Of a DNA stretch of 25,886 bases, positions 2,038 through 18,613 are shown piece after piece. Both the position numbers and the translations under genes were made by a program. Each line of letters opens with the position of its first letter. The stretch's first letter is position 1. The notes beneath the pieces are model-generated. The model was not told where the DNA came from and did no database searches. It saw only the letters and a list, made by a program, of their open reading frames with translations. The stretch comes from a virus: positions 1 to 25,886 of IMG/VR virus record IMGVR_UViG_3300042691_009502, one strand, 5' to 3'.

Positions 2038-2097
2038 ATACTTCTTTAGTTTTCTTTAGAATTCTATATATAATTATGGAGATAAAAAATTATTGAA

Positions 2098-2112
2098 ATA
2101 TTTATTTTATAT
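2098..2112 (+). promoter_or_regulatory. AT-rich intergenic motif, candidate phage promoter (fibre gene)
   Basis: ATATTTATTTTATAT lies 15 nt before the ATG of the giant fibre gene. The ATATTTAT core recurs before the starts at 10013, 15854, 21015 and 23303, which suggests a regulatory element and not chance AT-richness alone. Promoter function is inferred. Confidence 0.35.
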
Positions 2113-2127
2113 AACCGAAAATAATTA

Positions 2128-5100
2128 ATGGCAGTAATAAAAAAATTCGCAGAAGTTTTAACGCAAAATTTAACTTCGTTTGGAGCATTCATATTAGATA
2201 CCAACCCAAATTCTGAATACTTTAAGATAACAGAGTTTAAAGATACATTTACGGGTGGTAAGAATGGATTTCTAATTGAAGGTAGCGAGCATTTAAAAGA
2301 ATCTACAGAAATTAAAATTCAAATTTTAGATGTTGATGGGAATCCAGTTTATTACGAGCCAGGTAATGGTATTCCTGAGTATTATGAAGGTACATCTAAA
2401 TTAGTAGCTGTTTACGTTTACGATGATACACCAATTGGTTCTGCTAAAATAACAATTTTAGGTGAATTAAAAACTTATGTAGATGAAGGTGGTGTAATAA
2501 AACCTATTCCAGATGAATGGAAAGATGTTTATAATGTAAAGTGGGAAAAAACTTTTCAAATAAACAAACTTCTATCAAATGAAGATAAAGTTAGATTTTA
2601 TAAAAGACCTGTTGTAAACATAGATGAGATAGTAAAGCCTATTTTTAATAATGTAACAACTACAATAACACAAACGGGTTCTTTAAGTGGTATTGCACAA
2701 TCACCAATAGCAGGACAAAGATTAGTAGATGTTACAACTCCAACAACGTACTTATTAAGAATTAATGATTCTACAAATTGGACAGGTTCGGTAGTAGGCA
2801 CAACAATTTCAGTACCATCTTTAGGATATTCCACAACAGTAGATAATGTAATAAATAATAAAGATGTTTTAGTAATAACACCCTATACTGAAAATGGATT
2901 GGTATCCAATTTTTCAAATAAAGGATATACCGCATCATTCAATTATACAGAAGGTGTAAACAATTTAAAAACAGCTCTCACCGGTTCTTTTGCTAAAATA
3001 AATTTATCAGATTTAACAACATTTGTTGGGGATTGTGCTAGGGTAAAAATATTTAGAAAATCTCAATCGGATTTAGCTGATTATCAGTTTATACAAGAAA
3101 TAAGATTAGAGTCTAACGAATTACTAAGAGATTTAGAATCAACAACTAAAAACGAAGAATTTTATGGTATCTTTGATGCTGTTAATTTTAAAAATTATTG
3201 GGTAACATCTTCAAACAATGTAACAACAACATTTAATCAAAATTATTTATTTAATTCTATAAAATTAGATAGTAATGGTGCTAATAATTTTTATACATCT
3301 AAGTCTTTAGATATAACGGAGGGTACTGAATATACACTAAACTTTAATCTTAGAGTTGGAAATGGAGAAGTTTTAGCAGGAAATTATTTAAGAGCATTTT
3401 TAAGTGGTTCTAGACAATCAACTATTAATGGTTCTCCTGTAACAATACAAGTTGAACAAAATATTTCAACAATAACATCGGATAGTTCTTTATTACAAAA
3501 AAATGAATTATCTGCTAATTTTAAAGCAGAACAAATTAATAATGGAAAACTTTACTTTGAGGTAAAGGGTGATGGTTGGCATTTAGCTGATGTTAGTTTA
3601 CGCGCTTCACAAGAAACAGCATACTCACCTGATGCAATCACATTTATCCAAAGTGTACCTAGAACATTACCTGAGGAAACATTTTTATATCGTTTTGAAT
3701 TTTATGATATAAATAACAATTATATTCCTGTTTTAGTTGAAGCAAGTAAAACTTTTAATGGTGGTAATTTGCAAAGAATACAAAAAGGATTGGTATTTAA
3801 TCCTCGTTCTTTACAATTTCAATTTGATTCTGGTTCACAACCAGTTCCACCAACTGTAGTAGGGTTTACAGTTACTAAAAACCTATTAACGGGTTCAGTA
3901 ACTTACACATCACAATCGTTTGACTTTGATGGTAATGAATTATTTGGGGATAACTATACTTCATCAATTACGGTAGGTGGCGGATTTCCTGGTTTATTAG
4001 ATGATATAACCTCTGATGCACCAACAATGACAGTACAACATTTTACAGGTTCAAGAACTGATAAAATTGTACAATTAGTTAAAATAACTGGAGAGGTAGA
4101 GGGATTTACCGATACAATAATATTCAGTAGAGTATTAGATGGATTTGGTGGTGTAAATTATGTAATCAGACCATATAGAGGTACACAAATCAGAAATAGT
4201 AGTACATCTTCATTAGAAATTCAAGCGGTTCGTATTGATGGTGTTAATGATATTGAGTTAAGTAGTTTAACTAAACCAGAAAAAGGATGGCCGGATACAC
4301 AACTTCACGTTATATCACGCTCTTTAGAAGGTAATGAAAAATTTGTAAACCTTGCATTCGCATCATCAAGTAGATATATTTTAGGATTAACAACTGGTTC
4401 ATTGGGTAGTGGGCAGATAAATTATAATGCAGTTTTTAATAGAGATTCTATTGATGTTAGAAGAACAGTCTATATGATGTCATCTGCATCTGCTGCATCT
4501 GGACCTGCATTCCAAACATCTGGCTCAGTTTTAGCAAGTATAATTTTAGAAGATTTGCAAGATGGATTGGATACACCAGTTGTTATATTCAATGCAGATA
4601 CTTTTAATATTGACCCTAGAAACGAAAGAACGTTTAGACCTCAATTTGGATTTGCAACCGCATCATTTTATAAAAGGGGTAGTACAGATTTAATAACAGC
4701 ATCATTTCAGGTATTTCCATCAATGTCAATTAATCAAGATTGGACTCCTGAGTATTGGTTTTATTATACAACACAAAGTGTAGACCCAACAATTTCAGTT
4801 GTAGCAATTGATGAGAATAGAAGAATTATTCCAGCGGGAGCATTGAATTCGGTTGTACGTTCTCCTTTATCTCAAAGTAAAAATATTACTGTTAAATTTA
4901 CATACACCGAACCATATACATCGCCATCAACCCCAACGGCTTCTATATCAGTAGATAAAACATTTACCATAGTTCCGCAAGGTACACCTGGAGATGAAAC
5001 AATTGTGTTTGAAGTAAATCCGGTTGCTATTACATTAGCAGCAAATTCAAAAGGTATTGTAAATGATTATAAACCAAGTATTACTGATATTAGAGTTAAG

Positions 5101-8100
5101 CAAGGTTCAAGATATTTATCATTTAGTTCAAGCGCTGCATCTCATCCATTCTTTTCACATGGACAGTTTTACATAGCAAGTTCTTCTATTATAGAACAAA
5201 ATGTAAAAGCAGGTAATATACATTTTACTTCATCATTTGGAGTTCCTTATACAGCATCTCTTATTGTATCTCAATCATCAAACTTAATAGATTTGAGTGG
5301 TAGTGTTACATATCCACTTGTAATTCATCCATATTTTACATCATCTATATACACTGCGAGTGTTGTAGTAAATTATACAAAAGTATTAGATGGACCTCCG
5401 CCAATACAAATTGTTATATCACCAACATCGGTAGCAATTCCTGCGGATGAGGTTGGATTTGTATCATCATATACAAATGCAAACACATCTATAACTGTAA
5501 AAGAAGGTGATGACTTTTTATTATACACAGCATCTCAGGCACCTGGTACTTGGAAAATAAATTCAATAGAAACTAGAACTGGTAACGTTTGGAATATAAG
5601 AACAGGCTCATTAGTAACTGGTTCTGCTAGTAGTTCATTCGGAACATTTAATCGTTTTGATTATCCATATGTTTCAGCAAGTGCAACATATACAATTCAA
5701 GTTTATCCAAACGCTTTAGGTAGCGGACATCAATACACATCATCTATATTCCAAAGAACTCAAACATTTACAAAGAATGTTTCAGTACCAAACGCAAGAA
5801 CAGTAGAATTAAAAGCAAACCCTTATACTATAAATTACGATAGAGATGGATACAAAGTTTCTCCTGAAGGTGATGTTGAATTAAAAGCAACTGCACAAAA
5901 CTATACTGGTTCTACTTGGTTTACTTTATTCTATGTGGATACTGATGGTAGTGAAACACTTTATGATGGACCTTATTATGAAGGAGTTCCTGAATATACA
6001 TTTATTGTTCCTGGTACTGATGCTGCTGGGCCTGAAGAAAATAAAACTTGGAGAGTAAAATTAACCGATGGAAATCCATACACATCATCAATTTTAAATC
6101 CATATAGAGCAGAAGGTCAATTAACAATTGCTGGTATCAAAGCAGGGGCTGACGCGTACCAAATTGCAGCAGATAATATAAACACATCTATAACTGCAGA
6201 ATTGTTTGATACTAACACAAGTGGAACAGCTATTAAACTACCAACTTTTAAAGGAATTAATCAGTTAATAAACGTAACATCGGGAACATATCCAGCTCCA
6301 CAACCTACCGATTACGATTATCTTTACAACTTAATTGGTATATTGGGATATGCATCCGCATCTATTTTTTATAAATCACCTTGGATTACATTAGGTTCTA
6401 ATAGAGTAACAACTAACCCAGCTTCAATGCCTGATATTGCCGCATGGGATAAACCTGGAATCAATAGGAGTGGTGAAATTGTTTATAAAGTTGAATTTGA
6501 AGGATACTCATCAAATTTAGGAACAAACCCACCAACAAGACACACAGAGTTTGTAACTCAATCAATAGCTGTACAATTTACAGAACCAGCTCCATATGAT
6601 GCTAAATTGCAAAATGATAATTCTTCAATTGTATATAAAGTATCTGGAGAAGTAACTTTAGGTTCAACTTCTAATCTAATACGAGCATATAGAGGTAACT
6701 ATGAATTAGTTAATAGACCTGCTGGATTTACTGGAGCTCAAATTGATGCATATGGAAGTTCATCTTATGAATATCAATGTAGAGTTCAAGTTTATTCAAA
6801 ATCATCTCACATTACTTTAGATAACGGAAACTTAATAGTGGGTAGTTATTTAAGTGGTACGCCGGCAAGTATGCCTGGTGTAACCGCATGGAGTAGTCCC
6901 GAAACAAACCCAACTGCTGAAATTGTATATAAAATTTATTGTGAAGGTAGACAAGAATTAATTAAAACACAATCTTTATCAATACAATATGAAGGTAATA
7001 CTGGTCCTGGTATTGTGATGAGAGGACAGTGGGTTGAAACGGAAGATTATATTGGTTCGGTAGAAACTACAAATCAACGTAGAGATGCAGTAATATTCCC
7101 AGACCCAACGGGTAGTTCTGGTGAAACCCACTTTTGGGCAGCTATTAGTGGGTCTGGTCCTGGTACGTTTGATAATAATGCTGTTTTAGTTGGAAAGCAA
7201 TTACCAACAAATCCATTATCACCATCTTATACTGATACTGCATATTGGCAGTATTTGGGACAACAAGATTTCTTCGTAGCAGCTAAGATTGCAATATTTG
7301 AAGAATCTTATGTTAAAAATACTATCAACGTTGGTACATACAATAACACATCAAAATATGCAAATATTGTATTAGCAGGTGGAAGGCCGGACCCATACAT
7401 TTCAATAGGTCAGCATGGTACGGTTGGTACTGGTGGTACAAGCGGAACAAGTATAAACCCATCAACAGCAGGAGCAGCTGGAACTTCTGGTACAGGTATT
7501 ATTGGATATGATAGACCTGGTATTTGGATGGGATTATATGAGCAAGGGGCTAGTGGAACATTTGGTAGATTATCAATCAAAGATTATTCCGGTACAAACT
7601 ATATGAATTGGGATGGCACTACTCTAATTCTTAGTGGTTTATTGAACGCAGGTGGAATGAAACTTGGTAGAGGTGTAAATGGTGCTAATAATGGTTTATA
7701 TTTAAACGCAAACAATTATTGGTATGATAGTGGTACTGCTTTTAAAGTTGGAGGTTCGACAAATTATTTAGAATGGGATGGTACTAATTTAACTTTAAGA
7801 GGTTCATTAAGACAAGTTTCAAGTGGAAATCCTGAAGGTGAATTTAGAGGAGCTTGGGCATCTGGGACACAATATTATATAGATGATGTTGTAACATATG
7901 GTACGGTTCCTGGTGTATCTTCATATATTTCTTCTACAAATCACGTTTCTACAAATGATACAAACGTTAATACGGGGTATCCACCAAACGCAACAAATGC
8001 TTGGACATTATATGCTGCAGCAGGTACATCTGGTACAGCTGGTACGGGTGGTAGCTCTGGAACGGCAGGTACAGCAGGTGCTACAGGTCCTGGTGTTGTT

Positions 8101-9972
8101 TATAGAGGCGAATATGATGCAGCAACAGCTTATATTTTTCAAACAGGAGTTCGTAGAGATATTGTAAAATACTCTGGAGCATATTATCTAACAAAGCAGA
8201 ACACAACAGGAAACTTACCAACAAATACAACATATTGGGAATCATTTGGTGCACAATTTAGTTCGGTAGCAACTGATATACTTTTAGCACAAGATGCAAC
8301 TATTACACGTGGATTAGTGATGGGTAGTGATGGTAGTACAAGCGGATTTGTTAGAAGTGCAAATGCAGATACACTCACAACGGGTTCAGCTCCAGGTTTT
8401 TATATGAGAACTGATGGTCAGTTTAGATTAGGATATAATCCTGAAGATGTACACCATCCAGCTGGTCAAAAACCACCATATATGTTGTGGGATAATACCA
8501 CACTTACAATTAGAGGTAAAATTGAAACTGACCAAAATACTGTATCTCAATTGGGTAACTGGAAGGTTGAAAACGGAGCATTTATGGATAGCTCTGAGCA
8601 AATGGTGTTAGATGCTGGTATTAAACAAATAATAATAAAAGATTCATCCGATACCCCAAGGGTGTTCATAAAGCAATCAAATATTTCTAGTCCAAGTGGT
8701 ACTTCTGCAACTGCGGTTATTAACCCATTATCAACTTATAGTTTTGGGGCGGGAGAGCAATTTACTATTGGTTCTATTGATGTTAGTGAATACACATATG
8801 ATACCACTGGATTTTATGTATCCCAACCTGGAACATATACAATTTCTTCTGTAAACTGGGGAACTGGTGGTGGAATATATGCACAAGCAGATATGAATTT
8901 CAATGGATATCTTAGTTTATATATGCAAGCTGTTATATATAATACCGATGACTTAACTGGTACTTATATTGGTGGTATAGGGTTGGGTTCGCTTACTGGA
9001 GGAGGAATATATACGGCCGGTGATGAGGATAATACATATTTTTATAATGGAGGTACATTATCATTAACATTCCCAGCGCCGGGTACATATTATGTGCATA
9101 CTTACCTAGCAGTATATGGGTATATATCCGGAGGAACTGTAACTTTAAGTGGAGCCGATAATCCAGCATCAAATACATTTACAATTCAACAATCTCAAAC
9201 TGAATTGGGACAAGATGGATTTTTAGTTGTAGCAGATGCAAATAACTATGCTAAGATTCAAAGAACTACCACAGACCCAATAATTGATATTAAAACAAAT
9301 GGTACAACTCCAGGTTTAAGAATTACAAACGCTAACGGTTCCGCATCAGCGAAAGCAATTGAAATATTAGCTGGGGATTTAACTTTATCTGGAGCTGGTA
9401 ATAATATAATGGTTAATGGTGGATATATTGGAACGGAAAATACGGCAGGCGGTATTCGTTTTCAAACCGATGGGTCTAACTCTGTATTAATAGGTCAAAA
9501 CTGGCCATCCCAAGCATCAAACGTAGCAACTGCAAGATTGAGAATTGGTACTAAACTTGGTATAAGTGGTAGAGAACTAATATTTGATTCATCTACTCTA
9601 AGAGTTAAAACCAATATTGAAGATTATCCTAATAATGCATACAATAGTATAAAAAATTTAAAACCAGTCCTATATACACCTTTAAAAGTGGTAGATAGTA
9701 CTAGATATATAACTGATGGTGAGGATGATTATAGCGATTCATATCCAATGCCAAACGCTAAAGAATACATAGGTAAGCAGGGTGGATTTATAGCAGAGTG
9801 GTTAGATGCAGATCCTGAAATGAGAAGATATGTATCATATGGTGTTAGTGGTAGTTTAATTACTAAAGATGCGATAAACTATGATATGATTGTAGTTCCA
9901 TTAACTAAAGCAGTTCAAATTCTTATGGATAAAGTAGAAGCGTTGGAGGCACATATTAGTGGTTCTTTGTAA
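2128..9972 (+). CDS. Giant modular tail-fibre/adhesin-like structural protein with C-terminal S74 chaperone domain (2614 aa)
   Basis: This is the largest gene in the window. The C-terminus (about 2488-2614) matches the peptidase S74 intramolecular chaperone: SSTLRVKTNI at 2488-2497, then GGFIAEWLD, a later NYDMIVVPLTKAVQILMDKV segment and a short terminal coiled coil. Such domains trimerise fibres and then cut themselves off. Upstream, residues about 960-1400 hold at least three related Ig-like beta modules rich in TSSI/TAS. Two related modules (ITLG... PASMP... EIVYK) start near 1419 and 1561. Gly/Thr/Ser collagen-like tracts lie near 1762-1790 and 1966-1989. Segments near 1904 (GEFRGAWASG) and 1989 (GVVYRGEYD) resemble CBM5/12-type carbohydrate-binding repeats. 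Three WDGT-type repeats lie between 1824 and 2130. No signal peptide or membrane segment is seen. The protein is probably a receptor-binding fibre or baseplate-attached adhesin. It is very rich in Ser/Thr and sits beside a glycosylation cassette. The N-terminal 150 residues may anchor it to the baseplate, but I do not recognise them. Confidence 0.8.
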   Translation: MAVIKKFAEVLTQNLTSFGAFILDTNPNSEYFKITEFKDTFTGGKNGFLIEGSEHLKESTEIKIQILDVDGNPVYYEPGNGIPEYYEGTSKLVAVYVYDDTPIGSAKITILGELKTYVDEGGVIKPIPDEWKDVYNVKWEKTFQINKLLSNEDKVRFYKRPVVNIDEIVKPIFNNVTTTITQTGSLSGIAQSPIAGQRLVDVTTPTTYLLRINDSTNWTGSVVGTTISVPSLGYSTTVDNVINNKDVLVITPYTENGLVSNFSNKGYTASFNYTEGVNNLKTALTGSFAKINLSDLTTFVGDCARVKIFRKSQSDLADYQFIQEIRLESNELLRDLESTTKNEEFYGIFDAVNFKNYWVTSSNNVTTTFNQNYLFNSIKLDSNGANNFYTSKSLDITEGTEYTLNFNLRVGNGEVLAGNYLRAFLSGSRQSTINGSPVTIQVEQNISTITSDSSLLQKNELSANFKAEQINNGKLYFEVKGDGWHLADVSLRASQETAYSPDAITFIQSVPRTLPEETFLYRFEFYDINNNYIPVLVEASKTFNGGNLQRIQKGLVFNPRSLQFQFDSGSQPVPPTVVGFTVTKNLLTGSVTYTSQSFDFDGNELFGDNYTSSITVGGGFPGLLDDITSDAPTMTVQHFTGSRTDKIVQLVKITGEVEGFTDTIIFSRVLDGFGGVNYVIRPYRGTQIRNSSTSSLEIQAVRIDGVNDIELSSLTKPEKGWPDTQLHVISRSLEGNEKFVNLAFASSSRYILGLTTGSLGSGQINYNAVFNRDSIDVRRTVYMMSSASAASGPAFQTSGSVLASIILEDLQDGLDTPVVIFNADTFNIDPRNERTFRPQFGFATASFYKRGSTDLITASFQVFPSMSINQDWTPEYWFYYTTQSVDPTISVVAIDENRRIIPAGALNSVVRSPLSQSKNITVKFTYTEPYTSPSTPTASISVDKTFTIVPQGTPGDETIVFEVNPVAITLAANSKGIVNDYKPSITDIRVKQGSRYLSFSSSAASHPFFSHGQFYIASSSIIEQNVKAGNIHFTSSFGVPYTASLIVSQSSNLIDLSGSVTYPLVIHPYFTSSIYTASVVVNYTKVLDGPPPIQIVISPTSVAIPADEVGFVSSYTNANTSITVKEGDDFLLYTASQAPGTWKINSIETRTGNVWNIRTGSLVTGSASSSFGTFNRFDYPYVSASATYTIQVYPNALGSGHQYTSSIFQRTQTFTKNVSVPNARTVELKANPYTINYDRDGYKVSPEGDVELKATAQNYTGSTWFTLFYVDTDGSETLYDGPYYEGVPEYTFIVPGTDAAGPEENKTWRVKLTDGNPYTSSILNPYRAEGQLTIAGIKAGADAYQIAADNINTSITAELFDTNTSGTAIKLPTFKGINQLINVTSGTYPAPQPTDYDYLYNLIGILGYASASIFYKSPWITLGSNRVTTNPASMPDIAAWDKPGINRSGEIVYKVEFEGYSSNLGTNPPTRHTEFVTQSIAVQFTEPAPYDAKLQNDNSSIVYKVSGEVTLGSTSNLIRAYRGNYELVNRPAGFTGAQIDAYGSSSYEYQCRVQVYSKSSHITLDNGNLIVGSYLSGTPASMPGVTAWSSPETNPTAEIVYKIYCEGRQELIKTQSLSIQYEGNTGPGIVMRGQWVETEDYIGSVETTNQRRDAVIFPDPTGSSGETHFWAAISGSGPGTFDNNAVLVGKQLPTNPLSPSYTDTAYWQYLGQQDFFVAAKIAIFEESYVKNTINVGTYNNTSKYANIVLAGGRPDPYISIGQHGTVGTGGTSGTSINPSTAGAAGTSGTGIIGYDRPGIWMGLYEQGASGTFGRLSIKDYSGTNYMNWDGTTLILSGLLNAGGMKLGRGVNGANNGLYLNANNYWYDSGTAFKVGGSTNYLEWDGTNLTLRGSLRQVSSGNPEGEFRGAWASGTQYYIDDVVTYGTVPGVSSYISSTNHVSTNDTNVNTGYPPNATNAWTLYAAAGTSGTAGTGGSSGTAGTAGATGPGVVYRGEYDAATAYIFQTGVRRDIVKYSGAYYLTKQNTTGNLPTNTTYWESFGAQFSSVATDILLAQDATITRGLVMGSDGSTSGFVRSANADTLTTGSAPGFYMRTDGQFRLGYNPEDVHHPAGQKPPYMLWDNTTLTIRGKIETDQNTVSQLGNWKVENGAFMDSSEQMVLDAGIKQIIIKDSSDTPRVFIKQSNISSPSGTSATAVINPLSTYSFGAGEQFTIGSIDVSEYTYDTTGFYVSQPGTYTISSVNWGTGGGIYAQADMNFNGYLSLYMQAVIYNTDDLTGTYIGGIGLGSLTGGGIYTAGDEDNTYFYNGGTLSLTFPAPGTYYVHTYLAVYGYISGGTVTLSGADNPASNTFTIQQSQTELGQDGFLVVADANNYAKIQRTTTDPIIDIKTNGTTPGLRITNANGSASAKAIEILAGDLTLSGAGNNIMVNGGYIGTENTAGGIRFQTDGSNSVLIGQNWPSQASNVATARLRIGTKLGISGRELIFDSSTLRVKTNIEDYPNNAYNSIKNLKPVLYTPLKVVDSTRYITDGEDDYSDSYPMPNAKEYIGKQGGFIAEWLDADPEMRRYVSYGVSGSLITKDAINYDMIVVPLTKAVQILMDKVEALEAHISGSL
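7417..7497 (+). repeat. Collagen-like Gly/Thr/Ser tract in the fibre gene
   Basis: The codons spell repeated GT/GTS/GTG units (GTVGTGGTSGTS, then AGAAGTSGTG) around residues 1764-1790. Such tracts commonly form flexible or triple-helical stalks between fibre modules. A second, denser tract follows about 530 bp downstream. Confidence 0.6.
7597..8517 (+). repeat. Three WDGT-type beta repeats in the fibre
   Basis: Three short related units occur: YMNWDGTTLILSG (nt about 7600-7638), YLEWDGTNLTLRG (about 7765-7803) and YMLWDNTTLTIRG (8479-8517). The pattern is Y-[ML]-x-W-D-[GN]-T-x-L-x-[IL]-x-G. Comparable units occur in the central, beta-structured parts of phage host-specificity proteins, where they precede a receptor-binding tip. 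Confidence 0.65.
8023..8094 (+). repeat. Second collagen-like tract (GTSGTAGTGG type) in the fibre gene
   Basis: Residues about 1966-1989 read GTSGTAGTGGSSGTAGTAG and end in ATGPG, just before a GVVYRGEYD segment. The earlier GNTGPGIVMRGQW segment (about 1622-1634) has the same GPG-[IV]V-x-RG junction. The tract therefore belongs to a duplicated stalk-plus-binding-module unit. Confidence 0.6.
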
Positions 9973-9982
9973 CGTTTTAAAT

Positions 9983-10000
9983 ATATTTATATATTTATAT
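9983..10000 (+). promoter_or_regulatory. Doubled ATATTTAT motif, candidate promoter for the oxygenase-like gene
   Basis: ATATTTATATATTTATAT contains the conserved core twice in tandem within the 40-bp gap after the fibre gene. It ends 12 nt before the ATG at 10013. Function is inferred from recurrence at other gene starts. Confidence 0.35.
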
Positions 10001-10012
10001 TTAATAAAGGTT

Positions 10013-10603
10013 ATGGCACAAAAAATGAATATAATTGTTGTAGATGATTTCTATGGCAATCCGTTTGAAGTAAGAAATTTTGCTTTACAACAAGAATTTA
10101 ATGTAACTGGTGGATTTCCCGGATTTAGAACCAAACCAATGATAAACGATACTATCAAAGATGCGATAGAATATGTTGTAAGTCCTTGGGGTGGTAGAGT
10201 AATTGATTGGTTTGAGGATGGTCATACTGGAGCATTTCAGTACACAACAGAAGAGCATCATTCATGGATTCATTGTGATGGTGGTAATAATTGGGCAGCA
10301 GTTTTGTATTTAACACCACATGCCCCAATTTCATCTGGAACTGCTTTTTATAGACACAAATTAACAAAATTAGAATCGTTTCAACATACAAATGAAATAC
10401 CAACCGAAGTGGATTTAAATCATCCATATTTGAGAGATTATAAAGATATTACAAAATGGGAAATTACGGATTATGTATCTAACAAATTTAATAGATTGGT
10501 TTTATATAGAGCTGATTTATTTCACAAATCTATGGATTATTTTGGAAAAGATAAACACAATGGAAGATTATTTCAAGTATTCTTCTTTAACACACAAAAT
10601 TAA
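10013..10603 (+). CDS. DUF6445-like protein with a 2-oxoglutarate/Fe(II)-oxygenase-type HxD...H...R signature (196 aa)
   Basis: The start is placed at ATG 10013 (MAQKMNIIVVDDF). A longer in-frame start at 9959 would overlap the fibre gene and add a hydrophobic leader encoded by the AT-rich promoter-like gap, so I rejected it. The protein shows WIHCD (H87, D89), LFHKS (H171) and GRLFQVFFF (R185), the iron-ligand and 2-oxoglutarate-binding pattern of the double-stranded beta-helix oxygenases. The N-terminus (VVDDFYGNPFEVRNFA) is typical of DUF6445-like proteins. If active it would hydroxylate a protein, sugar or small molecule; the substrate is unknown. It lies between the fibre gene and the sugar cassette, with only 5 nt to the next gene, so modification of fibre or glycan is conceivable but unproven. 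Confidence 0.68.
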   Translation: MAQKMNIIVVDDFYGNPFEVRNFALQQEFNVTGGFPGFRTKPMINDTIKDAIEYVVSPWGGRVIDWFEDGHTGAFQYTTEEHHSWIHCDGGNNWAAVLYLTPHAPISSGTAFYRHKLTKLESFQHTNEIPTEVDLNHPYLRDYKDITKWEITDYVSNKFNRLVLYRADLFHKSMDYFGKDKHNGRLFQVFFFNTQN

Positions 10604-10608
10604 AAAAT

Positions 10609-10866
10609 ATGCAAGAAAAAACTGAAAAATTGGATGAACAAATTTTAAATAATTTGAAAGAATATCAATCAAAGCTAAGTGATTTTACATTTGAATTAGG
10701 ACAAATTGAAATTAATCTTTTACAATTAAAAAGCTATAAAAGTTCAATTGAAACCGAATACAAAAAAACAAAACTTGGTTTTGACGAGGTAGTAAAAGGT
10801 TTGGAAGAAAAATATCCAAATGGAGAAATTAATTTAACTGAAGGAACAGTAACATATCAAGAATAA
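10609..10866 (+). CDS. Small coiled-coil protein (85 aa), paralogue of the protein at 15414-15824
   Basis: This short, charged, helical protein has heptad-like spacing over most of its length. It contains ELGQIEI (29-35) and a C-terminal EEKYPNGEINLTEGTVTYQ (66-84). The protein at 15414-15824 carries DFGQIYI and DDKYPQGRINMQDGTIQYQ in the same order, so the two are paralogues. There is no signal peptide, membrane segment or catalytic motif. The start follows the oxygenase-like gene by 5 nt, with no Shine-Dalgarno sequence. I do not know its function; a small structural or assembly protein is most likely. Confidence 0.75.
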   Translation: MQEKTEKLDEQILNNLKEYQSKLSDFTFELGQIEINLLQLKSYKSSIETEYKKTKLGFDEVVKGLEEKYPNGEINLTEGTVTYQE

Positions 10867-10904: not shown

Positions 10905-13091
10905 ATGGCTAATAATATGAGAAAAAAATTGTTATATGTATGTCCGCACTTATCAACAGGTGGACAGCCTCAATATACCTACAAACAAATCAAACATTTT
11001 ATAAATGACTTTGATATTCAAGTTGTTGAAATAAACAATAGTGGTGGAGATGCTTTTGTTGTTCAAAAAAATAGAATAAAAGAATTAGTGCCTGTACATA
11101 CATTGGGTAGTAATAAAAAAGAAATTTTGGACCACATAAGAACTTTCAATCCAGATATAATACACTTTCAAGAAATACCTGAATACGATTTACCACTTGA
11201 TATAGTAGAAAGAATATTTTCAAAAGAAAGAAAATACTTCATAGTGTGTACAACACATGGTTCATTAACCAATCCATCTGATATTATTTACCAACCAGAC
11301 AAATATGTTTTAGTATCCGAATGGAGTAAACAAAGATTTGAAGGTGCTGACTTGGGTGTTGAACTTGATGTTTGGCAGTATCCTATCGAAGATTATATCT
11401 TTAGTAAAGATGATGCAAAAAAAGAATTAGGATTAGACCCAACATGGAAGCATGTGTTAATGGTTGGGTTATTCTCACCCGGTAAAAATCAAGGTGAAAT
11501 ATTTTCAATAGCTAGGCAATTAGAAAAATATAAAATTAAATTTCATTTTGTAGGCAATCAAGCTATGAATTTTGAAAGTTATTGGTCACCTATAATGAAA
11601 TACAAACCTGAAAATTGTATCATATGGGGTGAAAGAAATGATGTTGATACTTTCTACGCAGCTTGTGACCTTTTTTATTTTTCATCAAAATTAGAATTAA
11701 ATCCTTTATCAATTAAAGAAGCTCTTTCTTACAAAATGCCTTCTATATTTAGAAAACTTCATACCTATTTGGATACATATGATAATAACCCATTGGTAAC
11801 ATATATTGATGATGATTTAAAACTTACAAAGAGAATAATATTAGAAAAATTACAACCTGAGTTTAATGAAATACCTGGATGGTTTGCATATTCGGAATTA
11901 TATAATAGTATGGTTGATAGTGCATCTGGTGGAGAAACTTTTGTTGAGGTTGGTGCTTGGTTTGGTAAATCTACAAATTATTTATCATCAAAAATAAAAG
12001 AATCTGGAAAAGATATAAACTTTACATCAATAGACACTTGGAAAGGTACTGATGATGAAGATTTGCATCAAAATATTGTAAACTCTTTTAATGGAGATAT
12101 ATTTTATGAATTTGTTGATAACACAGTATTATCAGATAACTATGGTAGATTGAATACAATCAAAGATACTTCTAAAAACGCAGCTAATAACTTTGCAAAT
12201 AATAGTATTGATTTTATAATGATTGATGCAGGCCATTCTTATGAAGCATTGATGGAGGATTTAAATATTTGGTACAATAAAGTAAAACCAGGTGGTATAA
12301 TTAGTGGTGATGATTATGGGGTTTTTGATGGAGTTACACGAGCAGCAAATGAATATTTTTATGGACAATTTCATCAAGGATTTCGTTCATTTGTAAGAAA
12401 AAAACCTCGTATCCAAATTAAGCATATGTTGACTAGACCAACTGATATGAGAGAAAGAGTATCCATACAATCATTACAACAATTAGAAAGATATGGTATG
12501 TTCTATCAGCCAATTATAAACGAAGTATATGAAGGAATACCACCTTCTGAAAATTGTAGAAGACCGGAACACATTTCACCAACAAATACTCCAGGTGAAT
12601 TATGGCCTGGTGCCGGATTAGGTTGGATGACAGGTAGACACTATGGATGCTATTTGGCACATAGAAACGCATTGGAAACGATTGATGAAGAAAATTTTGA
12701 TTATACTTTGATATTTGAAGCAGATGCATTCATTTATACTGGATTGGAAGAATTTGTTGATGTTGTGAATAAAGCATGTTTCATGTCAGAGCTAAACGAT
12801 GCATACTTTATATCATTTGCAAATAATCCTTGTAGAGAAAGAACTAAGATAGATGAATTATTTTCTTTAACAGGACCTTCACAAGATTTGGCACATTGTT
12901 ATCTTATACCAAACCGAACTAAAGGTTGGTGGATGGACAGAATAAAAGATTGTGGATGGGATGTTGGTGACCTTTGGTATAATCATGTATTTTACCATCA
13001 TCCTATGAAACGTTATACAACAAACAAAATGTATAGTAAACAAGCCGAAGGATATTCACTATTAGATTTGACAGTTAAAACTTGGAGTTAA
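10905..13091 (+). CDS. Three-domain fusion: GT-B glycosyltransferase, SAM methyltransferase and GT25-like glycosyltransferase (728 aa)
   Basis: Residues about 7-320 look like a GT-B (GT4-like) glycosyltransferase: YVCPHLSTGGQ at the N-terminus, a VGLFSPGKNQGE hinge, and an E-x7-E motif (E264, E272) in LELNPLSIKEALSYKMPS. Residues about 330-490 form a class I methyltransferase with FVEVGAWFGKST (motif I, 346-356), FIMIDAGHSYEA (437-448) and GGIISGDDYG (463-472). Residues about 503-728 resemble GT25/LPS-type glycosyltransferases: HMLTRPTDMRER, GCYLAHRNAL (581-590) and the acidic IFEADA (603-608) in place of a DxD. The protein is soluble, without a signal peptide. The stop overlaps the next start in TAATG. 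It probably builds and methylates a glycan. Donor and acceptor are unknown, and each domain call is by motif only. Confidence 0.78.
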   Translation: MANNMRKKLLYVCPHLSTGGQPQYTYKQIKHFINDFDIQVVEINNSGGDAFVVQKNRIKELVPVHTLGSNKKEILDHIRTFNPDIIHFQEIPEYDLPLDIVERIFSKERKYFIVCTTHGSLTNPSDIIYQPDKYVLVSEWSKQRFEGADLGVELDVWQYPIEDYIFSKDDAKKELGLDPTWKHVLMVGLFSPGKNQGEIFSIARQLEKYKIKFHFVGNQAMNFESYWSPIMKYKPENCIIWGERNDVDTFYAACDLFYFSSKLELNPLSIKEALSYKMPSIFRKLHTYLDTYDNNPLVTYIDDDLKLTKRIILEKLQPEFNEIPGWFAYSELYNSMVDSASGGETFVEVGAWFGKSTNYLSSKIKESGKDINFTSIDTWKGTDDEDLHQNIVNSFNGDIFYEFVDNTVLSDNYGRLNTIKDTSKNAANNFANNSIDFIMIDAGHSYEALMEDLNIWYNKVKPGGIISGDDYGVFDGVTRAANEYFYGQFHQGFRSFVRKKPRIQIKHMLTRPTDMRERVSIQSLQQLERYGMFYQPIINEVYEGIPPSENCRRPEHISPTNTPGELWPGAGLGWMTGRHYGCYLAHRNALETIDEENFDYTLIFEADAFIYTGLEEFVDVVNKACFMSELNDAYFISFANNPCRERTKIDELFSLTGPSQDLAHCYLIPNRTKGWWMDRIKDCGWDVGDLWYNHVFYHHPMKRYTTNKMYSKQAEGYSLLDLTVKTWS

Positions 13092-14239
13092 TGATATACG
13101 AAAATTTAAAAAAGAATCTCAACAATAAAAGAAAAGTTGATAACAAAGTGTTTGTACATTTTGTTAGAGGCGCATTTGTTGAAATAAAAGGAAATATTCA
13201 AAAAAATTACAAAGTTAAATTTTTTGATAATAGAACGGGGAGATTGTTATTCAGTTCTGATATATCAACAAATATGTGGACAAAATGTAATGTTGAATAT
13301 TTTGTTGAATGGCGTATTGAAATATATGAAGGTGATAAGTTATGGTGGCATCATATATACAATGCACACAACAAAAGAGTTTATGTTGCTCTAGATTCTA
13401 AAGCATTGGGTGATAGTTTAGCATGGATTCCGTATGTAGAAGAATTTGGAAAAGTGCATGGAGCAAAAATGATTGTTTCAACTTTTATGAACACTATGTT
13501 TGAAGAAAAATACCCAAACATAGAATTTGTTGTTCCCGGTGTAAGTGTTGAAAATCTTTACGCTATGTACTCTATTGGTTTATTTTACAATGAAGATAAT
13601 ACAATTAATATTTACAAAAATCCAATAGACCCAAAGAAGCAAACAATGCAAAAAATGTGTTCTGATATATTGGGATTAGATTTTAAAGAAATAAAACCAA
13701 AATTAAAAGATAGAAAAATTTCAATAGATTCAAACTACAAACAAGTTTGTATAGGAATACATGGTACAGCTCAATCTAAATTTTGGAATAATCCAACTGG
13801 TTGGCAAGAAGTTGTAAATTGGTTAAATCAAAAAGGATATGTTGTGAAACTTCTTTCAAAAGAAGGTGAAAATTATATGGGAAACCAATTACCATCTGGA
13901 ATCGTAAGACATCCAGAAGGACCGTTAGAATTGGTTATGGATGAAATGAAAAAATCAAAAGCATTCATTGGTATTGGTAGTGGATTGAGTTGGTTGAGTT
14001 GGGCATTGGACGTACCAACAGTATTAATAAGTGGATTTTCTTATAGATGGGCAGAAATGGAAGATTGTATTCGTATTGGAGCACCCACTGGAAAATGTGA
14101 AGGATGCTTTAACCGATTGAGATTGGATCCTGGTGACTGGAATTGGTGTCCAGACCATAAAGGAACTGAAAGACAATTTGAATGTACTAAATCAATTACA
14201 TCCGAAATGGTAATCAAAGAATTGGAAAAATTTCTATAA
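13091..14239 (+). CDS. TibC/BAHT-like protein O-heptosyltransferase with a four-Cys iron-finger motif (382 aa)
   Basis: The start is taken as ATG 13091, sharing TAATG with the upstream stop. A TTG three codons earlier (13082) is possible but less likely. An N-terminal beta domain (about 18-95, with FVRGAFVEIKG and YKVKFFDNRTG) precedes ALDSKALGDSLAWIPYVEEF (100-119), a hallmark of bacterial autotransporter heptosyltransferases; D108 lies in ALGD, where the catalytic Asp of TibC is expected. The C-terminal part has IGIHGTAQSKFWNNPTGWQE and GIGSGLSWLSWALDVPT, typical of GT9-like sugar-nucleotide binding. Cysteines C336, C339, C353 and C365, ending in HKGTERQFECTKSIT, match the iron-finger region. 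Known members form dodecamers and move heptose from ADP-heptose to Ser residues of autotransporter repeats. The adjacent HldE-type genes fit this role. The phage acceptor is unknown. Confidence 0.88.
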   Translation: MIYENLKKNLNNKRKVDNKVFVHFVRGAFVEIKGNIQKNYKVKFFDNRTGRLLFSSDISTNMWTKCNVEYFVEWRIEIYEGDKLWWHHIYNAHNKRVYVALDSKALGDSLAWIPYVEEFGKVHGAKMIVSTFMNTMFEEKYPNIEFVVPGVSVENLYAMYSIGLFYNEDNTINIYKNPIDPKKQTMQKMCSDILGLDFKEIKPKLKDRKISIDSNYKQVCIGIHGTAQSKFWNNPTGWQEVVNWLNQKGYVVKLLSKEGENYMGNQLPSGIVRHPEGPLELVMDEMKKSKAFIGIGSGLSWLSWALDVPTVLISGFSYRWAEMEDCIRIGAPTGKCEGCFNRLRLDPGDWNWCPDHKGTERQFECTKSITSEMVIKELEKFL

Positions 14240-14631
14240 TGAAAAAGGTTTGGGTAAACGGAACTTTTGATGTTTTACACATCGGGCATATAAAACTTTT
14301 AGAATATGCATCATCTTTTGGAACTCTAAGAGTTGGCATTGATACTGATGAAAGAGTTAGAGAAAAGAAAGGTGAATCAAGACCATACAATTCATTGGAA
14401 GATAGAATGGGATTTATGCGTAGCATTAGATTTGTTGATAGTGTTGTTGCATTTGATTCCGATGAATCTCTTATAGAACACATAAAGCAATGGAGACCTG
14501 ATATTATGGTAATTGGGGATGATTACACATATGAACAAATAATAGGAAAAGAATTTATTCCTAAGATTGAATACTTTAAAAAAGTAGAGGGTATAAGCAC
14601 TTCAAAAATATTAGGAGATGGCAAAATATAA
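14239..14631 (+). CDS. hldC: HldE C-terminal/RfaE2-type heptose-phosphate nucleotidyltransferase (130 aa)
   Basis: This single-domain cytidylyltransferase-fold protein has NGTFDVLHIGHIKLLEYA (7-24) with the HxGH motif H14-H17. VGIDTDERV and RPYNSLEDR follow, then VIGDDY and the GISTSKI motif (118-124). This pattern is that of HldE/RfaE C-terminal adenylyltransferases, which convert D-glycero-beta-D-manno-heptose 1-phosphate and ATP to ADP-heptose. TagD-type glycerol-3-phosphate cytidylyltransferases share the fold and are the main alternative. The gene starts on the TAATG that ends the heptosyltransferase gene and overlaps the kinase gene by 14 nt, so the three are translationally coupled. 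It is a stand-alone domain; in many Gram-negatives it is fused behind the kinase as HldE. Confidence 0.8.
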   Translation: MKKVWVNGTFDVLHIGHIKLLEYASSFGTLRVGIDTDERVREKKGESRPYNSLEDRMGFMRSIRFVDSVVAFDSDESLIEHIKQWRPDIMVIGDDYTYEQIIGKEFIPKIEYFKKVEGISTSKILGDGKI

Positions 14632-15364
14632 AGTATTAGTAGTTGGAGAAAAATGCACAGATATTTTTGTATATGGTACAACCAACAGAAAATCACCAGA
14701 AGGAAATGGACCTGTTTTCATACCAAATAACGAAGTTTATGGAGATGGTATGGCATTAAATACGGCTAACAATTTAGCATCAATGGGATTACAAGTTGAT
14801 GTATTTTGTGATACTGGAAATATTACAAAAACAAGATATGTTGACGAAAATACTAATGAATTATACATAAGGGTAGACGAAAATGATATAGTAGAAAAGA
14901 TAAACTTATCAGATTTACCCAAATTAGACAACTATGATGCAATAGTTATATCCGATTATTGTAAGGGATTTTTGACTGAGGAAGATATATCTTATATTTC
15001 AAAACTACATAGGTTAGTAGTTTTAGATACAAAAAAATATTTAGGAAGTTGGTGTAAGGATGTATCTTTTATAAAACTAAATAGGTTTGAGGCTCAAAAT
15101 AACCATGATATAATAATAGAAAATAAATGGTTAGATGATAAGATAATAACCACTTTAGATGGTAGCGGAGCTTGTTATAAAGGTAATGTAATAAAAACCG
15201 AAAAGGTTGAAAATGCGGATGTAAGTGGGGCTGGGGATACTTTTGTAGCGGCGTTTGTTGCAAGATACTTAGATTCTGAAAATGTAGAAGAATCTATTGA
15301 TTGGGCAAATTATTGTGCCGGTTCTGTTGTACGAAAAAAAGGAGTTTCTGTATTTGGAAACTAA
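14618..15364 (+). CDS. hldA: HldE N-terminal/RfaE1-type PfkB-family sugar kinase (248 aa)
   Basis: PfkB features are clear: GEKCTDIFVYG (10-20), a SPEGNGPVF segment (26-34) reminiscent of the ISPEAPVPV of RfaE1, NTANNLASMG (48-57), VISDYCKGFL (110-119), and the catalytic DVSGAGDTFVAAF (201-213) with D207. HldA/HldE kinases phosphorylate D-glycero-beta-D-manno-heptose 7-phosphate to the 1,7-bisphosphate. At 248 residues it is shorter than the usual 310-330, apparently through loss of part of the lid region, so substrate preference could differ; another PfkB sugar kinase is the alternative. It overlaps the nucleotidyltransferase gene by 14 nt in another frame. The isomerase (GmhA), phosphatase (GmhB) and epimerase (HldD) steps are not encoded in this window and would have to come from the host or elsewhere in the phage. 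Confidence 0.78.
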   Translation: MAKYKVLVVGEKCTDIFVYGTTNRKSPEGNGPVFIPNNEVYGDGMALNTANNLASMGLQVDVFCDTGNITKTRYVDENTNELYIRVDENDIVEKINLSDLPKLDNYDAIVISDYCKGFLTEEDISYISKLHRLVVLDTKKYLGSWCKDVSFIKLNRFEAQNNHDIIIENKWLDDKIITTLDGSGACYKGNVIKTEKVENADVSGAGDTFVAAFVARYLDSENVEESIDWANYCAGSVVRKKGVSVFGN

Positions 15365-15413: not shown

Positions 15414-15824
15414 ATGGCAGGTTTAGATAATATACCACAGCAACAACAAATTACAATTGAAACAGCAAAAATTGATGCGGAAACTATGCAATCAATTAAT
15501 GATTTAAATCAGAAAATTCAGGGTTTGGTTTTGGATTTTGGACAAATCTACATTCGTAGAAAAGAAATTCAAGACGAAATGGTAAGAATGGATGATTTCT
15601 TAGAGAAAGGCGAAGATGAATTTAAAGTACTAAATACTCAATTAAGAGAAATTATTGATGGTTTGGATGATAAATATCCACAAGGAAGAATCAATATGCA
15701 GGATGGTACTATACAATATCAACCAGGCGCACCAACAAGAAAGCAACTTGCAGAAATGCAAAGACAGCAACAATCATCAACAATGCCTGATGGTTCAACT
15801 GGTATGAAAGTTGTAAAAGAGTAA
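15414..15824 (+). CDS. Coiled-coil protein (136 aa), longer paralogue of the protein at 10609-10866
   Basis: A Gln-rich N-terminus is followed by a helical, heptad-rich middle (about 20-85). DFGQIYI (41-47) and DDKYPQGRINMQDGTIQYQ (85-103) correspond to ELGQIEI and EEKYPNGEINLTEGTVTYQ of the 85-residue protein before the sugar cassette. It carries an extra Gln-rich, probably disordered C-terminal tail of about 30 residues. There is no signal peptide, membrane segment or enzyme motif. No Shine-Dalgarno precedes the ATG, which instead follows an AT-rich candidate promoter. The function is unknown; this may be the ancestral copy, with the shorter protein as a duplicate. Confidence 0.8.
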   Translation: MAGLDNIPQQQQITIETAKIDAETMQSINDLNQKIQGLVLDFGQIYIRRKEIQDEMVRMDDFLEKGEDEFKVLNTQLREIIDGLDDKYPQGRINMQDGTIQYQPGAPTRKQLAEMQRQQQSSTMPDGSTGMKVVKE

Positions 15825-15853: not shown

Positions 15854-18613
15854 ATGAGAGGATTAGCAAAATTTTTAGTAGAAACAATATTGGGAGAAGC
15901 GGCTAAGGTAGACAAAGTGGTTGTTGTCTATTCAGGCCGCTTTCAACCATTTCATAAGGGTCACTACGCAACGTATGACCATTTGGTTAAGAAGTTCGGA
16001 AAAGATAATGTTTATATAGGAACTTCTGATGTAACCGATTCAAAAAAATCTCCATTTAATTTTAAGGAAAAGAAAGTCATTATGACAAAAATGTTTGGTA
16101 TCCCAACAAACAAAATTGTTAATGTCCGTAATCCTTATGCACCACAAGAAATACTTAATAAATTTAATGAAGATACTACTGGTTTTATAACTGTAGTTGG
16201 TGAGAAAGATGAAGCACGTTTAGGTGGTAAATATTTCATACCATATAAAGGAAAGGTAGTAGAACCTTATTTAGAAAGAGGATATGTTTATGCAGCACCT
16301 GCACAACCCAACGCTATTAGTGGAACTGATGTTCGTTATTGGTTAAGTGCTGGTAATGAGGCTGATAGAAAGAAAGGTTTTATGAAAGCATATCCTAAGT
16401 TTGATGAGCAAGTATTTAAAATGATTACTCTAAAACTTAAATCTCTTAAAGAATATATTAACGAAGAAATAAAATTAAATGTTAAGGTTGGTGATGAAAT
16501 TCTTATGGGTAAATTTAAGAACAAAAAAGTTCTTGTTAAATCCATAGGTAAAGATGAATGGGGAATGCCAACAATTAATGGTAAGAAAGCAGTAACTTTT
16601 AGAATTCCTAAAAAAGAAAATTTAAAGGAAGCAACTGGAGGAGCCGCAGGTTTTACAGCAGGTGACGAACCAGATATGTCATTTGTAGCAGATGGGCAAA
16701 AAAGAATATTAAACAAATATAAGCCTGAAAATTGGTATAAGCAAGGTGGGTATGTCCAGTTAGAAGAACCAACAGCAGATGCTATGCGTGGTAGAGGTAA
16801 AAATAAAGATAACGAATCACAATTTAGAAAAGCTATATACAAAGTAAAAAATGTAGTTCAAAGTACACTTAATCCAGCAGATGACCCTCACACTGTAGAA
16901 GATTGGCAGCAAATTAATAGAGAAACACCTTTGGAAAAACCTAAAAGATTTTGGGAACTTCCTAAAAATCAAAAACCTCAAATAATTTCAAAAGAAGATA
17001 TAAATGAAATCATTGATGAAGTTGAACAAGAATTATTAGATGAAATGGGTTTTCCTGGCGGAGCTGGTGTTGGTCTGAGTTTACCAGGTGGATATATTAA
17101 TGGAGCACCAAATCCAAAAGATGTTAAGAAATTAAAATCTAAATTGGATAAAGATGGTAGTGAAGAATACACTAAAGTAAAAGAAGATAAGATACCTGGT
17201 GGATTGGCAAAGGGAATGTCATTATCAGATATTGCAAAACATCATAATATAAGTCCACAAACTTTAAAAAATGAATTCATCAAAGGATATGCGGTTGAAA
17301 GAGAGCATACTACTGATGTAGAAGTTGCAAAAGAAATTGCATTAGACCATTTATACGAAGACCCAAATTATTATAGTAAATTATCAAAGATTGAAACTCC
17401 TTTAAGTGAGGGTTTACTTTTAGAAGGTGGTGCGTATGGACATATGGCACATCCATTTGATATTGAAATGGGTTTAACATTTGGTGACCTTAAACAAATT
17501 GTTGTAAAAGCATTAAATGGTGATTTGGAATTAGCAAGAGAAAAAACTGATGGACAGGCATTAGCAATTAGTTGGGTGAATGGTAGATTAGTTGCGGCTC
17601 GTAACAAATCACACCTAAAGAACAAAGGAGCTGGTGCTATGACAATAGGACAGGTAGCAGATAAGTTTGCCGGTAGAGGTGGATTGACGGATGCATATAA
17701 TTACGCAATGAAAGATTTATCTGCGGCAATAGCAGCATTATCCGAACCACAACGTAAAATGATATTCAAGAGTGGAAGTTGTTTTATGAATTTGGAAGTA
17801 ATATATCCAACTTCAGTAAATGTAATTCCTTATAATCAACCACTATTAGTATTTCATGGTACATTTGAATACGATAAAGAAGGAAATATAATTGGTGAAA
17901 ATCAACAAGCAGCTAGAATATTGGCTGGTATGATTAAGCAAGTAAATGCACATGTTCAATCTAAGTACACAATACAAGGACCACCAATGCAGAAACTCCC
18001 AAAATCAGAAAATCTTTCTAAACTACAAGGAAAGTACATTTCAATGATTTCAAAACTTCAATCTGAATTTGGATTAAAAGATTCCGATGGTGTGGCTGAT
18101 TATCATCAAGCATGGTGGACTAAGTTTGTAGAAAAAGGTGCAAAAAAATTAGATACACAAGAAAAAATAGGATTGGTTAAAAGATGGGCTTTTGGAGATA
18201 AATCATTCCGTATTAATACAATACAAGACCCTAAAATAAAAGCATGGGCTGAGGGAGTTGATAAACAAGACCAACAAAAAATATCAAAACAAAACTTAAT
18301 GAAGTTTGAAGAAATATTTTTAGGTGTTGGTGCAGAAGTTCTCTCATTTATGAGTTCCGTACTTACAGCAAATCCTGAATCTGCAAAAAGACAGATGGTT
18401 GGTAGATTGCAATCAACTATACAACAAGTGAAAGCAAGTGGAGACCCTAAAAAGATTGAAAAACTTAAATTAGAATTACAAAGATTAGAAGCTTTGGGTG
18501 GATTTGAAAAAATTGTACCAAATGAGGGTATTGTTTTTGTGTATAATGGTAATACATACAAATTGACAGGAGCATTTGCGCCGTTGAATCAGATATTGGG
18601 TATATTTTTCTAA
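15854..18613 (+). CDS. Multidomain protein: NadM-like nucleotidyltransferase, DUF5661-like and nucleic-acid-ligase-like domains (919 aa)
   Basis: Residues about 20-195 form a nucleotidyltransferase with SGRFQPFHKGH (27-37) and AISGTDVRYWL (154-164), closest by eye to NadM/PPAT-type adenylyltransferases. Residues about 444-512 (GLAKGMSLSDIAKHHNIS, then EREHTTDVEVAKEIALDHL) resemble DUF5661. Residues about 545-919 resemble a covalent nucleotidyltransferase/ligase: motif I K564-TDG, FMNLEVI (644-650), LLVFHG (664-669), EGIVF (891-895) and a late Lys in TYKLTG (K903). The linker at 200-440 is low in complexity. LxE motifs followed by a small residue lie near the N-terminus (LGE15/A16), at LKE259/A260 and at LLE524/G525, close to domain borders, so prohead-protease processing is possible. 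Its N-terminal FLVETILGEA resembles LLIETHLFEG in the protease itself. Substrates are unknown. Confidence 0.72.
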   Translation: MRGLAKFLVETILGEAAKVDKVVVVYSGRFQPFHKGHYATYDHLVKKFGKDNVYIGTSDVTDSKKSPFNFKEKKVIMTKMFGIPTNKIVNVRNPYAPQEILNKFNEDTTGFITVVGEKDEARLGGKYFIPYKGKVVEPYLERGYVYAAPAQPNAISGTDVRYWLSAGNEADRKKGFMKAYPKFDEQVFKMITLKLKSLKEYINEEIKLNVKVGDEILMGKFKNKKVLVKSIGKDEWGMPTINGKKAVTFRIPKKENLKEATGGAAGFTAGDEPDMSFVADGQKRILNKYKPENWYKQGGYVQLEEPTADAMRGRGKNKDNESQFRKAIYKVKNVVQSTLNPADDPHTVEDWQQINRETPLEKPKRFWELPKNQKPQIISKEDINEIIDEVEQELLDEMGFPGGAGVGLSLPGGYINGAPNPKDVKKLKSKLDKDGSEEYTKVKEDKIPGGLAKGMSLSDIAKHHNISPQTLKNEFIKGYAVEREHTTDVEVAKEIALDHLYEDPNYYSKLSKIETPLSEGLLLEGGAYGHMAHPFDIEMGLTFGDLKQIVVKALNGDLELAREKTDGQALAISWVNGRLVAARNKSHLKNKGAGAMTIGQVADKFAGRGGLTDAYNYAMKDLSAAIAALSEPQRKMIFKSGSCFMNLEVIYPTSVNVIPYNQPLLVFHGTFEYDKEGNIIGENQQAARILAGMIKQVNAHVQSKYTIQGPPMQKLPKSENLSKLQGKYISMISKLQSEFGLKDSDGVADYHQAWWTKFVEKGAKKLDTQEKIGLVKRWAFGDKSFRINTIQDPKIKAWAEGVDKQDQQKISKQNLMKFEEIFLGVGAEVLSFMSSVLTANPESAKRQMVGRLQSTIQQVKASGDPKKIEKLKLELQRLEALGGFEKIVPNEGIVFVYNGNTYKLTGAFAPLNQILGIFF

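Follow-up and report, generated by a model that had tools for sequence, protein, structure and literature searches.

Genes for O-heptosyltransferases of the TibC/AAH type (the BAHT family, TIGR04414, known until now from bacterial adhesins) normally adjoin the gene for their substrate, which is an autotransporter with strand–loop–strand repeats. Mycobacteriophages have been reported to glycosylate their virions with enzymes of their own, and virion glycosylation by phages is therefore not a new idea in general; HldE-like kinase/nucleotidyltransferase pairs in phages are also already known, from marine cyanophages. Here we describe a four-gene cassette (positions 10905–15364) in a 25,886-base IMG/VR fragment, IMGVR_UViG_3300042691_009502 (the window), which was assigned to a large T4-like bacteriophage. 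The cassette encodes a fusion of GT4, S-adenosylmethionine (SAM) methyltransferase and GT25-like domains, a TibC-like enzyme, and an HldE-like nucleotidyltransferase and kinase. It probably serves the phage as an O-glycosylation line for its Ser/Thr-rich virion fibres.

The initial annotation had read the 382-residue (aa) product as TibC-like and had proposed a structural comparison with TibC, and the reading is supported. The protein matched TIGR04414 with 281.3 bits against a curated cut-off of 200, covering model positions 10–373 of 374, and the same family was matched by 47 of 47 sampled relatives (E ≤ 0.001). Its best match in the PDB was TibC (4rap, E 2.6e-51). The AlphaFold2 model, with a predicted local distance difference test score (pLDDT) of 92.7, was aligned to 4rap by Foldseek over 373 columns with a template-modelling (TM) score of 0.86 and a root-mean-square deviation of 2.6 Å, and it contains both the N-terminal barrel and the iron-finger region of the TibC fold. 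In TibC, D110 is the base, R286 contacts the adenine and P300 sets stereoselectivity; R286 is highly conserved in the BAHT family, and its alanine mutant is without activity (PMC4358343). The window enzyme and its phage-type relatives resemble TibC and AAH in their fold, GT-B core, catalytic Asp, phosphate-binding Lys and Trp: D110, T226, K230 and W305 are invariant among them, as are all four iron-coordinating cysteines of the iron finger. By contrast, the R286 position is V in the window enzyme and in 64 of 64 window-family sequences and is not Arg in 48 of 50 other viral sequences, whereas 41 of 48 sequences from bacterial genomes, which are all of the classical members (41/41), keep the arginine. 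The P300 position is G in the window enzyme and Gly or Ser in the phage-type clade; because G also occupies it in several classical bacterial members, this substitution is ruled out as a sign of a new donor. In the tree, the phage-type branch is split from the classical members with a Shimodaira–Hasegawa-like approximate likelihood ratio (SH-aLRT) of 100. Given the loss of R286 and the separate clade, the product is assigned by sequence to a mostly viral, phage-type subfamily, separate from classical BAHT. Relatives of this enzyme are carried by hundreds of viral fragments.

The initial annotation had named ADP-heptose as the sugar donor. The TibC fold and the HldE-like genes are in keeping with that assignment, which is nevertheless weaker than stated, as the arginine that reads the adenine is replaced by V. 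ADP-heptose is the likely donor as judged from these features, although the loss of R286 means that its use is not secured and that there is a real chance of a different donor. Heptose is our best guess for the transferred sugar because of the fold, the phosphate and Trp contacts and the HldE-like genes, with a chance that we put at about even or slightly better.

The phage-type clade is strongly linked to Gly-Thr-Ser repeat proteins, in phages and in bacteria. In several classical loci, the enzyme gene lies 39–290 bp from that of a large surface protein (L185, L178, L202 and L197), and some of the neighbouring proteins in the loci inspected carry clear strand–loop–strand repeats. Phage-type genes likewise adjoin the gene of a presumed acceptor, but the acceptor here is a fibre protein or a protein with Gly-Thr-Ser repeats; in many cases this neighbour resembles collagen, is very rich in Ser/Thr and consists of Gly-Thr-Ser, Gly-Ser-Ser, Gly-Thr-Asn or similar triplets. 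A Gly-Thr-Ser tract was present within the locus in 24 of 57 other phage-type cases and in four or five of the five bacterial phage-type cases, compared with 0 of 39 classical ones. The association was also seen in a blind scan of viral contigs of at least 40 kb, chosen by a Gly-Thr-Ser DNA pattern or, as the control, by a Gly-Pro-X pattern. The enzyme was present in 18 of 36 contigs picked by the former and in 1 of 23 picked by the latter (p = 1.6e-4), and this sole enzyme-bearing control was the only control with Gly-Thr-Ser tracts. At the level of stretches, the corresponding counts were 8/120 and 0/119.

Five bacterial genomes were scanned for six-fold G[ST]x tracts, and in three of them, the whole chromosomes of Polaromonas, Methylococcaceae and Methylomicrobium (2.6–4.7 Mb), no such tract lies farther than ~1 kb from the gene. 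Of the 17 tracts in Methylobacter luteus, seven are that close; in Methylobacter BlB1, the matches fall on a different contig and the local tract is just under the threshold. A scan of 237 genomes of one bacterial family placed a tract within 0.8 kb of seven of nine phage-type genes and of none of eight classical genes (p 0.0019); one of the two phage-type exceptions is cut by a contig end and the other has a poly-Ser neighbour. At L476 (5600–6650, minus strand), a homologue of the methanotroph repeat protein has a poly-Ser tract in place of Gly-Thr-Ser, which suggests that what is conserved is a need for Ser/Thr hydroxyls and not for the collagen fold. On inspection by eye, the proteins encoded beside the bacterial genes start with apparent signal peptides; one of them scores above the Pfam cut-off for collagen. 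Two contigs filed under bacteria, L171 (a Rickettsiaceae metagenome-assembled genome, MAG) and L175 (a Bacteroidetes MAG), resemble phage DNA and are probably misbinned, because they carry fibre and baseplate-like genes.

The fusion protein had been described as a glycosyltransferase/methyltransferase/glycosyltransferase. Its GT4 domain (PF00534, 40.4; cut-off 26.4) and methyltransferase domain (PF13578, 67; cut-off 26.3) were confirmed, and the second glycosyltransferase, a C-terminal GT25 domain (PF01755), fell below its cut-off (19.9 against 24). PF00534 and PF13578 were found in 17 of 17 relatives and GT25 in 8 of 17 at E ≤ 0.01. COLGALT1, the collagen hydroxylysine galactosyltransferase of family GT25, was among the whole-model Foldseek matches (3e-5); because the structure model is of low confidence (pLDDT 62.9), the GT25 reading is tentative, and this weak likeness could equally reflect GT25 enzymes of lipopolysaccharide (LPS) synthesis. 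Elsewhere among phages, unlike in TibC/AAH BAHT, the TibC-like enzyme itself is often joined, in several orders, to GT4 and/or methyltransferase domains, and these fusions tie the GT4, methyltransferase and TibC-like activities to one process. One example is WWT39291.1 of Microcystis phage Mel-JY01 ('methyltransferase FkbM'; L083, 4750–8430), in which one polypeptide of 1227 aa carries a GT4 domain at its N terminus and, in its last 360 residues, a phage-type TibC-like enzyme 46% identical to that of the window. Its gene lies downstream of a partly annotated Gly-Thr-Ser/Gly-Ser-Ser collagen-like open reading frame (ORF; 635–3052), with one structural gene between. Unlike in the window, no HldE-like genes were seen beside it.

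In the window, the 130-residue nucleotidyltransferase scored 102.7 bits with TIGR02199 (HldE domain II), the best of all NCBIfam families yet under the cut-off of 181.5. The best family for the 248-residue kinase, which is shorter than the model, was TIGR02198 (HldE domain I; 98.7 bits, under the cut-off of 345). The kinase passed the PfkB family PF00294 (59.3 against 25.8), and its GAGD catalytic motif lies in DVSGAGDTF, invariant across 15 sequences. Thus, in the hidden Markov model search of the four proteins that had been proposed as a check, TIGR04414, GT4, methyltransferase and PfkB passed, and GT25 and both HldE domains did not; the HldE-type reading of the two genes is weaker than stated, although the HldE domains are their best curated families.

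Gene order was compared among relatives, as had also been proposed. The order fusion gene, heptosyltransferase-like gene, terminase region is kept in essentially all 80 fetched relatives, with the fibre upstream wherever the contig extends that far, and coincidental gene order is ruled out by this recurrence. The donor genes behave differently: across 81 loci (the window family plus Mel-JY01), 29 have both, 8 have the nucleotidyltransferase alone and 44 have neither. When mapped on the enzyme tree, these labels change eight times overall, clustered yet repeated, consistent with several gains or losses. The constant part of the cassette is therefore its glycosyltransferases, to which donor supply is an optional addition, and the view of the cassette as one fixed unit has to be given up.

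The closest described counterpart of the donor genes is the homologous pair T4-GC 304/305 of the T4-like cyanophages P-SSM2, S-SM2 and P-TIM68, which lies near tail fibre or sugar genes; the window kinase is 33–43% identical to its cyanophage homologues. The neighbours of this pair include, in one or another phage, genes for phosphoheptose isomerase, transketolase, tail fibre and 2-oxoglutarate (2OG) oxygenase. In contrast to the window, none of these three cyanophages, all tested, has a TIGR04414 enzyme, and the phosphoheptose isomerase that they carry was not seen in the window relatives tested. A complete heptose pathway in relatives was considered and rejected: GmhA was found in one distant jumbo phage alone and was absent from a 136-kb relative. 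In that jumbo phage (LR756504.1), GmhA (430182–430640) scores above its curated cut-off and lies 27 kb from the TibC-like enzyme (457160–458230). The initial annotation knew of no described phage system of this kind. Indeed, neither phage BAHT homologues nor a link to Gly-Thr-Ser repeats was found described in the open-access literature (subscription journals were outside the search), and the enzyme clade and the acceptor class appear to be new; the kinase/nucleotidyltransferase pair, as noted, is not.

The tail fibre encoded upstream of the cassette is the nearest candidate acceptor, and the claim that glycosyltransferase and donor-synthesis genes stand beside tail genes is supported. A tract as long as its eight-triplet collagen-like one arose in 0 of 2000 shuffles of the fibre. 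The strand–loop–strand O-heptosylation repeats of TIGR04415, the canonical BAHT acceptors, were not found in the window fibre, nor above cut-off in 17 related records, mostly fragments. In two window-family relatives with longer contigs, large fibres distinct from the adjacent one are encoded about 20–40 kb away and contain long GSS/GTS stretches. Given these distant fibres and the short tracts in the adjacent one, either the neighbouring fibre or a distant long-repeat fibre, or both, may serve as acceptor in the window phage.

In the proposed glycosylation line, the TibC-like enzyme would start the glycan on Ser/Thr hydroxyls; its targets would be low-complexity tracts, as a rule collagen-like ones of Gly-Thr-Ser/Gly-Ser-Ser triplets. 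The fusion protein would then elongate and methylate the glycan. The supply of nucleotide-heptose donor would be raised by the HldE-like pair, and relatives without it would draw on host ADP-heptose. We infer the transfer reaction, heptose as the sugar and the identity of the modified protein in the window phage. Several observations weigh against this proposal. Within the window family, Gly-X-Y tracts of at least five triplets occur in 20 of 49 adjacent fibres, many of them truncated, which rules out such tracts as a universal trait of that fibre; a strict Gly-Thr-Ser tract of at least five triplets was seen in 0 of 51 fetched loci, and the four-fold repeat pattern in 6 of 18 contigs, which are fragments. 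Heptose-type nucleotidyltransferase genes show a weak enrichment alongside the enzyme in other phages (9/38 against 2/40), which is confounded by the contigs' size, and the idea of tight co-occurrence was dropped. The loss of an arginine that TibC needs means, moreover, that the donor chemistry may differ.

This last point opens the way to a reading in which the acceptor is the same, Ser/Thr-rich fibre tracts, and a different nucleotide sugar is the donor, which the HldE-like genes would make unless they serve otherwise. We regard it as possible but somewhat doubtful. The near-complete loss of the adenine contact from phage-type members, and its retention in every classical one, suggests such a change, as does the absence of donor genes from over half of the relatives. 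In PDB sequence searches, the best matches of the nucleotidyltransferase were glycerol-3-phosphate and ethanolamine-phosphate cytidylyltransferases, although HldE scores higher among curated models. However, K230, T226, W305 and D110 are invariant, HldE domains are the top-scoring curated families for both genes, and the homologous cyanophage pairs adjoin phosphoheptose isomerase and transketolase genes, all of which counts against this reading. It is unlikely that the genes instead modify a host surface glycan or protein, such as LPS, against superinfection, with the proximity of the fibre reflecting a shared host-recognition module. Phage glycosyltransferases, and rfaE in marine myophages, are usually read in this way (PMC7029224), and HldE-like genes belong to LPS core synthesis; yet the enzyme falls in a protein-specific family and not in the LPS family GT9, and its clade tracks Gly-Thr-Ser repeat proteins even in bacterial chromosomes, away from recognisable phage genes. 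The initial annotation had left open whether the phage decorates its own virion or a host surface protein, and the evidence favours virion fibres. The linkage might also reflect no more than a shared phage lineage and habitat, large freshwater phages being rich in both repeat fibres and glycosyltransferases with no enzyme–substrate relation. The contig samples are phylogenetically non-independent, and half of the Gly-Thr-Ser repeat contigs lack the enzyme, both of which count in favour of such a coincidence and against the glycosylation line. We nonetheless consider it improbable: the Gly-Pro-X control was near zero, the gene and tract are adjacent within 1 kb in bacterial chromosomes, three of which have no tract elsewhere, and classical members of the same bacterial family show no adjacent tract.

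The four ORFs were confirmed as consecutive and coupled, with TAATG junctions at 13091, where the ATG of the TibC-like gene lies, and at 14239, and with a 14-nt overlap (14618–14631) between the third and fourth. The phage origin of the window is clear because T4-type terminase, portal and prohead protease genes follow the cassette; the tail fibre is on its other flank. By terminase, the closest cultured relatives are Flavobacterium phage immuto (57%) and Mel-JY01 (54.5%).

Table. Predicted features of the cassette and the adjacent fibre, in window coordinates
Feature	Position	Strand	Basis
Tail fibre, 2614 aa, 20% Ser/Thr, candidate acceptor	2128–9972	+	phrog_5073; composition; upstream of glycosyltransferase genes in relatives
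Short Gly-X-Y tract GQHGTVGTGGTSGTS in fibre	7408–7452	+	Sequence inspection
Short tract GAAGTSGTG in fibre	7471–7497	+	Sequence inspection
Eight-triplet collagen-like tract GTSGTAGTGGSSGTAGTAGATGPG in fibre	8023–8094	+	Shuffle test
Small protein, 85 aa	10609–10866	+	Between fibre and glycosyltransferases in relatives; in nearly all loci, a count inflated because the paralogue at 15414–15824 cross-matches
GT4–SAM methyltransferase–GT25-like fusion, 728 aa, proposed glycan elongation and methylation	10905–13091	+	Pfam
Phage-type TibC/AAH-like O-glycosyltransferase, 382 aa, central enzyme (predicted)	13091–14239	+	TIGR04414; TibC in PDB; fold model; residues
HldE domain II-like nucleotidyltransferase, 130 aa, optional donor gene (predicted)	14239–14631	+	TIGR02199; phrog_7878; 37/81 loci
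HldE domain I-like PfkB sugar kinase, 248 aa, optional donor gene (predicted)	14618–15364	+	TIGR02198; 29/81 loci

The cassette is flanked by two small proteins (10609–10866 and 15414–15824) that match each other in tblastn and look like paralogues. Between the fibre and the glycosyltransferases, 9959–10603 encodes a DUF6445 protein with an HxD...H pattern as in 2OG-Fe(II) oxygenases, present in just 2 of 80 relatives (L002 and L081); 2OG oxygenases are likewise encoded next to the fibre and HldE-like genes of cyanophage P-SSM2. Downstream, 15854–18613 encodes a 919-aa protein with an N-terminal nucleotidyltransferase domain and DUF5661, which varies in length among relatives and always lies immediately before the terminase region.

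These observations allow a broader picture, which we offer tentatively as one that may well not hold in full. A derived TibC-type enzyme, alone or fused to sugar and methyl transferases, would constitute a widespread viral system that densely glycosylates Gly-Thr-Ser collagen-like virion fibres, using a donor other or broader than ADP-heptose and giving mucin-like coats; some methanotrophs would hold a related pair, the enzyme and a secreted repeat protein, nested in the viral diversity. Long Gly-Thr-Ser collagen-like fibres recur in environmental phages, and their link to a specific clade of protein O-glycosyltransferases makes it possible to test directly whether phages build fibre coats that are glycosylated; such coats could influence adhesion, the stability of the particle and the recognition of hosts. 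The TibC family, in turn, gains a second likely class of acceptor and a set of natural donor-site variants.
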